Source: Candidatus Beckwithbacteria bacterium
GTDB lineage: Bacteria; Patescibacteriota; Microgenomatia; UBA1400; CG1-02-47-37
Direction of reading: 5' to 3'
DNA: 37,470 nucleotides
Assembly: GCA_026397255.1 (NCBI GenBank)
Contig: JAPLVF010000013.1
Location: 214,062 to 251,531, forward strand
Shown: positions 1 to 3,091 of the stretch, in pieces
How the letters are laid out: each line of letters starts with the position of its first letter
Position numbering within the stretch: the first letter of the stretch is position 1
The notes under the pieces: generated by a model
What the model saw: the letters and a program-made list of their open reading frames with translations, nothing else
Database searches by the model: none
Told to the model about the DNA's origin: nothing
Made by a program: the position numbers and the translations under genes

Positions 1-1023
1 GACGTGCGGATCAGATTGAATCTTAAAAGCCAGGCCGCAGAAAGGCGCTTCGCTGTTACAAGCACGGATTTCTTCGACTTTGGTTTTAGGATTAGTGCCT
101 TTAACTTGCCTAAGATCAACCGGGCTGGGCAAATACTCAACCACGGCATCCAAAAGCGACTGAACGCCTTTATTTCTTAAAGAAGAGCCGCAAAAAACCG
201 GGACTAATTTATAAGCAATAACCGCTTTTCTTAAAGCGGCTTTTAACTCGACCATGGTTGGTTCTTCCGCGTTTAAGAATTTTTCTAAAAGTTTGTCGTC
301 GTGTTCGGAAATCTGCTCAATTAATTTAGTCCGGTATTTTTTAACTTCAGTTTTCATGTCCGCCGGGATATCGACAATATCATATTTGGCGCCGGTTTCG
401 TCGCCTTTCCAAATCAAGGCTTTTTGGTCCAAAAGCAAACAAATGCCTTTAAAGGTGTTTTCGGCGCCGATCGGCAAAGCCATGATGACGGGGTTGGCGC
501 CTAAACGATCGCGGATGTCCTGCACCGTAGCCTGAAAATCCGCACCCAGTTTATCCATTTTATTAACAAAGCAAAGACGCGGGACTTTATATTTGTCGGC
601 CTGATGCCAGACGGTTTCGGACTGACTTTGGACACCTTCTTCGGCATCCAAAACCGTAATGCCGCCATCAAGGACGCGTAAAGACCTTTCGACTTCGGCG
701 GTAAAGTCGACGTGGCCAGGAGTATCAATAATGTTGATGCGGTATTCTTCCTGAGGGATAGCGCCGGGAAGAATGGGGGTCCAAAAAGCAGTGGTAGCAG
801 CAGAAACAATGGTGATGCCGCGCTCGCGCTCCTGGGCCATCCAGTCCATTTGGGTAGTACCTTCATCAATGTCGCCGAGCTTGTAAGTCCGGCCGGTATA
901 AAACAGAATCCGTTCGGTGGTGGTGGTTTTGCCGGCATCAATATGGGCAATAATGCCGATGTTGCGGATTTTATCCAAAGGCACATGGCGCTTATTGGCG
1001 GTATCGGTTTGCGTTAAAGTCAT
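1..1023 (-). CDS. fusA: Elongation factor G, N-terminal half (runs off window)
   Basis: Translation elongation factor G, the GTPase that drives ribosomal translocation and, with RRF, ribosome recycling in the cytoplasm. The visible 341 residues, about half of a typical ~700-aa protein, start at the ATG at 1021-1023 and stay open to base 1. The G domain is clear: P-loop AHIDAGKT at about residues 26-33, DTPGHVDF switch II, and NKMDK for guanine specificity. In most bacteria fusA directly follows rpsL-rpsG; here 3.4 kb of accessory DNA intervenes and fusA has its own promoter (-35 TCGACA at 1112-1117, -10 TATAAT at 1089-1094). A terminator-shaped hairpin abuts the start codon and no Shine-Dalgarno is visible, so expression may be controlled in the leader. 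The family call is certain; the regulation is inferred. Confidence 0.97.
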   Translation of the reverse strand, partial: MTLTQTDTANKRHVPLDKIRNIGIIAHIDAGKTTTTERILFYTGRTYKLGDIDEGTTQMDWMAQERERGITIVSAATTAFWTPILPGAIPQEEYRINIIDTPGHVDFTAEVERSLRVLDGGITVLDAEEGVQSQSETVWHQADKYKVPRLCFVNKMDKLGADFQATVQDIRDRLGANPVIMALPIGAENTFKGICLLLDQKALIWKGDETGAKYDIVDIPADMKTEVKKYRTKLIEQISEHDDKLLEKFLNAEEPTMVELKAALRKAVIAYKLVPVFCGSSLRNKGVQSLLDAVVEYLPSPVDLRQVKGTNPKTKVEEIRACNSEAPFCGLAFKIQSDPHV

Positions 1024-1050
1024 AAAAAATCGCTTCTTCTCAAAGCGATT
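1024..1050 (-). terminator. Terminator-like leader hairpin abutting the fusA start codon
   Basis: On the minus strand AATCGCTT pairs perfectly with AAGCGATT over a 7-nt loop, and the stem is followed by T residues that run straight into ATG. It lies downstream of the predicted fusA promoter, so it is in the fusA leader. It has the shape of an intrinsic terminator and may act as an attenuator or a stability hairpin. Confidence 0.6.
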
Positions 1051-1126: not shown

Positions 1127-1156
1127 TTGACAATACCTTTACTGTCACATAATAAT
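1127..1156 (+). promoter_or_regulatory. Predicted promoter of the candidate structured RNA
   Basis: Plus strand: perfect -35 TTGACA (1127-1132), 18-bp spacer, -10 AATAAT (1151-1156; five of six match). The expected start, about 7 nt past the -10, falls at 1163-1164, exactly where the closing helix of the candidate RNA begins. Confidence 0.6.
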
Positions 1157-1163
1157 GAACTTT

Positions 1164-1400
1164 GTGCGGGGCAGCAATTTTCAAAGATGCGGCCAATCAA
1201 CATCATGCTGGGATATAAAATCCTAGCGGATGAAGAATAAATCTTCGCCCTTGGTAAAACACTATTACCGGGGCGATTTTTATTATCACCACCATAATAT
1301 CCTTTCTTACGGCCTTTAATTAACAAAAAGGTTGACCGTAAGTCCAAGACCGGCCTTAACCGTAAAAAGGATTGGGCAACGTTGGTCTGCTGCCCCGCAT
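1164..1400 (+). ncRNA. Candidate structured non-coding RNA, unassigned class
   Basis: A perfect 12-bp closing helix pairs TGCGGGGCAGCA (1165-1176) with TGCTGCCCCGCA (1388-1399). Inside it, GCCAATC (1192-1198) can pair with GATTGGGC (1370-1377). Local hairpins follow: GCTGGGAT/ATCCTAGC (1207-1227) extended by CATC/GATG, GAAGA/TCTTC (1232-1246), CGCCC-GGTAA/TTACC-GGGCG (1246-1275), and CTTACGG/CCGTAAG (1306-1342). The last competes with a longer helix, 1299-1312 with 1360-1372. A promoter ends just upstream. I looked for the hallmarks of RNase P RNA, tmRNA, SRP RNA and a tRNA-like end and found none. No convincing gene overlaps. It could be a divergent known RNA, a retron-like RNA without its reverse transcriptase, or something new. 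Plus-strand sense is favoured because the promoter start coincides with the helix. Confidence 0.5.
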
Positions 1401-1683
1401 TAAATTCACTTTTTAAAGAACGTAGATTTTCTGGTTTTGCCAGATTTAGCAATAACACTACCTACAGTGCCAAAAAACATTATCCCCCCAAGGATAGTAC
1501 CGTCAACTACCAATTTCTACTACAAACTATATCAGTTTATTTTTCCCTCAAGAAAAAGTGGGTTTTGAGGTTAAACAACAATGTTTTTTGCGTAATTTCT
1601 CTAGAGTTGAATACATTTTTTATTCAACCAGCATAAAAAGAAGAAATAATCCCCCTACAAGGATAGTCCTTGAAGGCTAAAAA
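1401..1683. other. Intergenic stretch with small hairpins and a repeated motif, no gene seen
   Basis: No convincing coding region. Small inverted repeats are present: TCTGG/CCAGA at about 1429-1445, CACT/AGTG near 1456-1469, CCTCAA/TTGAGG at about 1546-1569, TTGAATA/TATTCAA near 1607-1627, and CAAGGA/TCCTTG near 1658-1672. A motif of the form ATCCCCC..CAAGGATAGT occurs twice, near 1482-1499 and 1649-1667. These may be remnants of a mobile or decayed element. Confidence 0.4.
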
Positions 1684-2038: not shown

Positions 2039-2066
2039 TTGACATTTGTCGAGAAGAGAATACAAT
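2039..2066 (+). promoter_or_regulatory. Promoter of the tandem paralog genes
   Basis: Plus strand: perfect -35 TTGACA (2039-2044), 16-bp spacer, -10 TACAAT (2061-2066), predicted start near 2073. This rules out an upstream in-frame start at 2046, which would lie inside the promoter. Confidence 0.65.
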
Positions 2067-2073
2067 CTTTTAT

Positions 2074-2099
2074 ATCTCTGCCCGAAGCAGAGATTTTTT
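2074..2099 (+). terminator. Terminator-like leader hairpin directly before the first paralog gene
   Basis: ATCTCTGC (2074-2081) pairs perfectly with GCAGAGAT (2087-2094) around the loop CCGAA, then T residues run into the ATG at 2100. The predicted transcript begins almost at the first base of this stem. It is a possible attenuator or 5'-end protecting hairpin. Confidence 0.6.
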
Positions 2100-2576
2100 A
2101 TGACAGATCAATGGCATGGTTTTACAGTTTCAGTAAGAACCCCAACTAGTGGCCAGGAACGGGAAAGCCACTCTTCGTGGCAAGAACAACCAACGGCTCG
2201 CTTTGGACATTACGAAGAAACGCTTTGGGAGCCAACTAAACCACAAGAGTTCTTAAAACCTCCGAAGGACACCGATTTTAGAGAAAGAGTTTTTGTTGTC
2301 TTTCTTAGTTCACAAGAACAACAGGAGAGGGGAAGTAAAGGAATAGCGATTGTCAGTCGCGGCCTGGCAGAAGTTTATTGCGGAGACGTAAAATTACTCT
2401 CTAGAGAAGAACCAATTATGAGAAAAGACGGGATAATTTTAATTCCCGGTCAAGCCTTCTATCCAAGCGTAAGAGCAGAAATACTTTTTGATAAACCGGG
2501 ACAAGCAGTGGAGTTACAGATTAAAATCGGAGAGCAAACAGTAAAAGAAGTTAAGATTGTTAACAAATTTGTTTAG
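2100..2576 (+). CDS. Hypothetical protein, tandem paralog A (158 aa)
   Basis: Unrecognised family. The start is set at the ATG at 2100 because the only longer reading begins inside the promoter. There is no Shine-Dalgarno; a hairpin and T-tract touch the start codon. No signal peptide or membrane segment. It is clearly homologous to the next gene: FTVSV at the N-terminus, WEPTKPQEFL (residues 43-52), VFVVFL (64-69), AIVSRGLAEV (83-92), and a beta-rich C-terminus with a GQAVELQIKIG stretch (134-144). The N-terminal ~40 residues are polar and probably flexible; the rest looks like an all-beta domain. It is among the few plus-strand genes in the window and uses many AGA and GAA codons, unlike its core-gene neighbours, which fits acquired DNA. 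Its function is unknown. Confidence 0.75.
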   Translation: MTDQWHGFTVSVRTPTSGQERESHSSWQEQPTARFGHYEETLWEPTKPQEFLKPPKDTDFRERVFVVFLSSQEQQERGSKGIAIVSRGLAEVYCGDVKLLSREEPIMRKDGIILIPGQAFYPSVRAEILFDKPGQAVELQIKIGEQTVKEVKIVNKFV

Positions 2577-2584
2577 ATTAGAAT

Positions 2585-3091
2585 ATGATATCTTTTCAAG
2601 TTTCTATAAAACAAGCGGCTGGGCAGGGAAGTGAAAGAGAAACAGTACCAGAGCCAATTTGGCAACCAGCAGAAATAGCTAAAAATAAAGGTAGAATTTG
2701 GAAACCAACGCAAAAAGGCGAATTTTTAGCTGACATCGGCCACCCAGAAGAAAGACAAGAAGAGGGAGTTTTTATTTTCCTCACTCCTCCTTATCAAGAT
2801 CCAAGACTCAAAGGAATAAAAACAGCTCAAATTATCAGTCGTGGCAAAGCTGAAGTCTTTATCAGACAAGGCATGGGTCCAGATGGCAAATACACTAGCG
2901 AGCTATGCTTGATTGAACGTGATAGGCCAAAAGCAGTAAGCCCGGGAATAACAGTTGTCACAGACAGGGGTTTAGAATTTGAAAAACGGGCGCTAATCAT
3001 CTTCCATAAATTAGGAGAAACGGCAGATATATTTCTTCGAGTGGACGGCAAGCTTACCGGAGAAACAAGAATAGAGTGTCAGGAAAAATAA
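2585..3091 (+). CDS. Hypothetical protein, tandem paralog B (168 aa)
   Basis: Second copy of the unrecognised family, 8 bp after paralog A and evidently in the same transcript. Matching blocks are FQVSI (residues 4-8), WKPTQKGEFL (39-48), VFIFL (62-66), AQIISRGKAEV (81-91) and a beta-rich C-terminal stretch, GETADIFLRVDGKLTGET (about 144-161). It has an extra loop of about 10 residues after the SRG-AEV block (GMGPDGKYTSE). No signal peptide, membrane span or catalytic motif is visible. The conserved KG-x(3)-A-x-I-x-SRG-x-AEV core is probably the structural heart of the fold. A pair of diverged tandem copies suggests a heterodimer or two related ligands. That is inference only. It converges on the minus-strand gene ending at 3105, with no clear terminator between. 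Confidence 0.75.
   Translation: MISFQVSIKQAAGQGSERETVPEPIWQPAEIAKNKGRIWKPTQKGEFLADIGHPEERQEEGVFIFLTPPYQDPRLKGIKTAQIISRGKAEVFIRQGMGPDGKYTSELCLIERDRPKAVSPGITVVTDRGLEFEKRALIIFHKLGETADIFLRVDGKLTGETRIECQEK

Follow-up and report, generated by a model that had tools for sequence, protein, structure and literature searches.

Organization of the Locus Upstream of fusA

The window analyzed here is a stretch of 37,470 nt, C13:214062-251531 of genome G000 (895 kb, 19 contigs). Its gene order comprises fusA on the minus strand, a 237-nt element on the plus strand, an orphan ORF on the minus strand (1684-1956) and two orphan ORFs on the plus strand (2046-2576 and 2585-3091), followed by two minus-strand ORFs and then by rpsG, rpsL, rpoC and rpoB. 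The features of the element, together with those found at other loci, are listed in Table 1. The two plus-strand ORFs are distant paralogs with about 30% identity, and neither Pfam nor PADLOC returned a match for them (window 2046-3091). ORF 1684-1956 yielded no further loci when used as a query. When GTDB contigs were searched with a fragment of FusA, no close relative came up; the nearest named ones are Microgenomates/Patescibacteria MAGs, the best of them with 70% identity. A 27-nt direct repeat (74%), ATTATCCCCC...AAGGATAGT, at 1472-1498 and 1641-1667 brackets the interval that separates the element from ORF 1684-1956. Terminator-like hairpins with a T-run abut the start codons of fusA (1021-1050, minus strand), of the plus-strand ORF starting at 2100 (2074-2099) and of another gene at C13:292960, and a similar hairpin is present before fusA in G003 and G001; these hairpins are possible attenuators.

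Table 1. Coordinates of the element, its predicted parts and the features compared with it. Plain numbers are window positions; C and L prefixes denote contigs and extracted loci.
Feature	Position	Strand	Basis or remark
-35 box, TTGACA	1127..1132	+	consensus scan; about 9 nt from the -35 box of the divergent fusA promoter
-10 box, AATAAT	1151..1156	+	consensus scan; predicted start about 1163-1164
Structured element, candidate stand-alone non-coding RNA, about 237 nt	1164..1400	+	MFE and window ranking
Closing helix, 5' arm, TGCGGGGCAGCA	1165..1176	+	exact reverse complement of 1388-1399
Hairpin 1, 8 bp, 5-nt loop	1207..1227	+	MFE and centroid
Hairpin 2, long, interrupted	1228..1290	+	core present in MFE and centroid
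Hairpin 3, 7 bp / UUGA bulge / 5 bp, GGCCUUU...AAAAAGGUUGACC	1306..1342	+	MFE and centroid
Hairpin 4, stacked on closing helix, letters resembling hairpin 3	1347..1388	+	MFE; not in centroid, less certain
Closing helix, 3' arm, TGCTGCCCCGCA	1388..1399	+	exact reverse complement of 1165-1176
U-run, ACTTTTT, possible 3' end	1408..1413	+	sequence; shortly past closing helix
Imperfect 26-nt terminal inverted repeats (81%), possible insertion ends	1151-1176/1388-1413 (span 1151..1413)	.	repeat comparison
Diversity-generating retroelement region, G002	L011:2577-3976 and L186:7882-8436
Second palindromic family, G000	C13:355100-355244 (L196), C6:38289-38431 (L199), C6:42079-42225 (L200)
Second palindromic family, G002	C1:154526-154667 (L197:1501-1642)
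Second palindromic family, other loci	L198, L202-L212

Predicted Fold of the Element

The initial annotation had described a 237-nt element closed by a perfect 12-bp helix and containing at least four local hairpins. The helix was confirmed: it is GC-rich, it is lengthened by a G-U pair between 1164 and 1400, and its pairs reach probabilities of 0.94-1.0 in the partition function. All four hairpins were predicted in the MFE structure, the last with the reservation given in Table 1. The MFE of -89.4 kcal/mol is far below the mean of dinucleotide shuffles (-57.1, sd 4.2; z -7.7), none of 200 shuffles folding as well, and the inner 211 nt without the arms still reached z -5.0 on the plus and -3.6 on the minus strand (base shuffles). 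The minus strand of the entire element folds almost as well (z -6.4), as is expected for any set of hairpins, so that folding carries weak information on the strand. Moreover, the GC content of the element is 44% as compared to 32-33% in both flanks.

To avoid favoring the boundaries given in the initial annotation, C13 (359 kb) was scanned on both strands with composition-corrected 300-nt windows at a step of 75 and in arbitrary phase. The element ranked first of 4782 plus-strand windows and second of 4782 minus-strand windows, with RNase P RNA ranking fifth on the plus strand. Two other strongly folding regions are located at or between genes, namely C13:31218-31592, with repeated AAGGTC[AG]GACCTT palindromes, and C13:348918-349217. 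Since the contig holds 28 perfect 12-bp inverted repeats with arms 100-400 nt apart, the closing helix counts mainly for its GC-richness and for the structure that it encloses.

Predicted Promoter and Transcript Ends

The promoter proposed to place the transcription start at the closing helix was recovered by sequence matching: TTGACA-18-AATAAT agrees with the consensus in 11 of 12 positions. Matches of this class number 17 over both strands of C13, i.e., 0.024 per kb per strand or about one per 42 kb of strand, and the chance of finding one on the plus strand at the right distance is about 2e-4 if a shift of ±3 nt is allowed and about 1.4e-3 if the whole of the 60 nt upstream is. Despite the fact that the promoter was picked after the fact by the initial annotation, the coincidence of promoter and helix is, on these frequencies, not likely to have arisen by chance. 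A canonical terminator was not called on the plus strand in the scan. The downstream plus-strand gene has its own promoter (2039-2066), similar to that preceding the homologous gene of G003, and a leader role for the element is therefore disfavored.

A cis-acting role was considered as well, in which the element would belong either to the 3' end of the convergent minus-strand gene 1684-1956, as a structure there, or to a regulatory region of the fusA promoter. The element does lie downstream of that gene and adjoins the fusA promoter, and its minus strand also gives a closed fold; however, the stop codon of 1684-1956 is about 285 nt away and the plus-strand promoter would be left unexplained, which makes such a role improbable.

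Search for Known Families and Relatives

No Rfam family matched the window at the gathering cut-off, and at E up to 10 the matches were sub-threshold only, the best being C0719 with 18.4 bits (cut-off 50) and His_leader with 22.8 bits (cut-off 49), neither of which is credible. The initial annotation had found no match to RNase P RNA, tmRNA or 6S RNA, and we come to the same result: the genome carries its own RNase P RNA at C13:179552-179919 and its own tmRNA at C13:355715-356089, and RF00013 (6S RNA) gave no match at E up to 10. Elsewhere on the contig, a DUF3800-IX RNA scored above the gathering cut-off at C13:26724-26795 (L047:6724-6795).

The element is single-copy in its own genome (one full match). 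DNA searches (blastn) detected no homolog in 53 relatives, then in 88 genomes of the order (all from outside the genus), in a 374-genome sample of the class, or among phages and plasmids, and viral contigs matched neither the end-to-end pattern nor an internal 18-mer. Two weak DNA matches from the order (G045 and G071, E 0.004-0.007) and one from the class (G160, E 0.001) are at chance level and lie in, or resemble, coding sequence of unrelated genes. A covariance model built from the single element sequence and its MFE structure had no match in the 88 genomes of the order and nothing convincing in C13, part of C7, the G002 chromosome and the fusA loci; with default filters, it returned nothing from the complete G002 chromosome. 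As a control, RNase P RNA was sought by the same DNA search and turned up in 17 of 29 genomes overall, own genome included, among them all three genomes of the same family (E 1e-36 to 1e-24). This indicates that the element is absent from these genomes or changes much faster than RNase P RNA. Conservation of the helices in relatives, whose failure the initial annotation had held to speak against its proposal, was thus found neither by DNA search nor by covariance model in the genomes to which the comparison applies.

A 122-aa ORF on the minus strand (1090-1458) is open across the whole element, and the region might accordingly be a decayed or orphan protein gene whose DNA folds by happenstance. 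Two weak matches in relatives, falling in coding sequence, would fit this explanation, but they are no better than expected by chance for the genomes searched and point to unrelated genes. The codon log-odds of the ORF (-0.03) is under the 5th percentile of real genes; a low score is, however, also obtained for the genuine neighbor 2585-3091, the paralog of 2046-2576, so that the codon score alone is not decisive. Pfam gave no match for the ORF either, and the fold is far beyond that of shuffled sequences. Hence, the element is probably not coding, and a protein gene is a very unlikely explanation of the locus.

Variability Upstream of fusA and a Second Palindromic Family

In G003, a member of the same family, a homolog of ORF 2046-2576 (32% protein identity) is located directly upstream of fusA, and neither the element nor ORF 1684-1956 is present at this slot. 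In G002, also of the same family, a reverse transcriptase gene and a divergent bAvd-like gene occupy the slot directly upstream of fusA. They lie next to a 123-nt repeat pair in which 20 of the 22 differences affect T residues of one copy (A when read on the opposite strand). Differences biased in this way are the mark of a diversity-generating retroelement, which is what the G002 slot holds. Taken together, G003 and G002 indicate that the place upstream of fusA is a variable slot in the family and, judging from these gene neighborhoods, the element is gained or lost in it.

A second structured palindromic family, of about 145 nt and present in nine genomes of the order with one to five copies each, came to light through a control, its first pair being the stretch C13:355023-355262 and C6:38296-38423 with 72% identity. 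A two-sequence model identified a third G000 copy, between trxA-like and trxB-like genes on C6, plus one copy in G002 and one in G055, and a five-sequence model added copies from other members of the order. The copies are mostly packed closely between genes, and Rfam gave no match for the family. In the first two-sequence alignment (MAFFT), 12 pairs had changed on both sides and none was broken. In the final alignment, which comprises 16 distinct rows, was fitted to the structure and leans towards it, 34 of 37 pairs have changed on both sides and 94% of cells pair; none of 500 shuffles reached this covariation, and partners slid by 1-3 columns pair at 36-46%. The G002 copy is situated in frame inside mnmA and adds about 44 residues (about 135-178) that are missing from solved MnmA proteins. 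This recalls Rickettsia palindromic elements, which insert in frame. The second family appears to be mobile; it shows copies and covariation, both of which are lacking for the element upstream of fusA.

The fact that G000 carries this second family makes a lone palindromic mobile element plausible at the fusA locus, too. Such an insertion between fusA and the next gene, MITE-like or similar to Rickettsia palindromic elements, is the main alternative to an RNA gene and a genuine possibility: the fold would then represent terminal inverted repeats and internal DNA palindromes, and any transcript would be incidental. Much of what speaks for an RNA gene is explained by it as well. The 26-nt terminal inverted repeats, 12 bp of them perfect, reach into the -10 box, the two strands fold nearly equally, the element's opposite strand scores 27.5 bits with the covariance model, and the slot is empty of the element in G003 and taken by the retroelement in G002. 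The covariation of the second family and its in-frame copy in mnmA add to this. Contrarily, the element has one copy in its genome and none in relatives, the longest flanking direct repeat is 5 nt (the chance of at least 5 nt being 0.46), within the own genome no other site matches the element ends and no related insertion sequence was seen, and the symmetry inside the arms is within chance (score 7.0 as compared to 8.7 ± 8.3 for shuffles).

Proposed Interpretation of the Element as an RNA Gene

We favor, with a probability of roughly 0.45, the interpretation that the element is a stand-alone structured RNA gene, orphan and specific to its lineage. It is supported by a fold that surpasses shuffled sequences by a wide margin and ranks with the strongest of the contig, by a promoter that is rightly placed and stranded and rare in the genome, by the more extreme fold of the inner part on the plus strand, by the U-run after the helix and the higher GC content than in the flanks, by the low codon score of the overlapping ORF and by the separate promoter of the downstream plus-strand gene. 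On the other hand, both strands fold well, the inverted repeat extends beyond the predicted start, and the genomes searched gave no homolog and hence no covariation. The proposal of a new structured RNA in the initial annotation therefore stands as regards structure above chance, a well-placed promoter and the negative Rfam and Pfam searches, and falls short as regards homologs and compensatory changes.

If the element is such an RNA gene, we propose that transcription begins at about 1164 from a sigma-70-type promoter arranged back to back with that of fusA, and that the transcript ends near the U-run, before the convergent gene 1684-1956. According to the computed fold, the 12-bp helix would join the ends of the RNA, with three to four hairpins radiating from a multiloop. 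Being closed and GC-rich, the folded RNA should be resistant to exonucleases, and this would most likely suit a stable RNA acting in trans on a protein or another RNA, with contacts possibly made via the unpaired segments at about 1176-1206 and 1291-1305. The more specific scenario of a large stand-alone structured RNA gene without known relatives, confined to one Microgenomates-type lineage and of recent origin in the variable slot beside fusA, possibly from a palindromic insertion, is a fair possibility, although less likely than not. RNA gene and palindromic insertion are not exclusive, as a captured insertion could be transcribed. If expressed, the element would be a large structured RNA without detectable relatives in a reduced genome and hence a test case for the origin of such RNAs; if it is a palindromic insertion, it would be further evidence for mobile structured palindromes in these small genomes.

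Comparison With Known Systems

The literature searched, with incomplete coverage, contained no direct description of non-coding or palindromic elements in this bacterial group. Like the element, RNase P RNA and tmRNA are large RNAs with paired ends, but both are encoded elsewhere in the genome. 6S RNA is similar in its helix-closed ends and its size of 180-250 nt; however, 6S RNA is a rod that opens into a central bubble, as opposed to the multiloop predicted for the plus strand of the element. MITEs and other prokaryotic palindromic elements, among which Rickettsia palindromic elements are listed, measure a few hundred bp, have terminal inverted repeats, lack a transposase and are intergenic (PMC10969869). 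The element shares its size, terminal inverted repeats, lack of a transposase and intergenic place with MITEs, but it differs from them in being single-copy, in having no convincing target duplication and in that no parent IS was seen. Rickettsia palindromic elements are, like the element, palindromic and structured and occur in a reduced genome; the element, however, has no copies and sits between genes, whereas it is the second family of G000 that behaves like them. Finally, raiA, OLE and ROOL are large structured bacterial non-coding RNAs with many homologs and covariation. Despite the fact that the element has neither of these and no Rfam match, it resembles orphan non-coding RNA candidates of this type in being stand-alone and intergenic, in having its own promoter and in having no assigned role.
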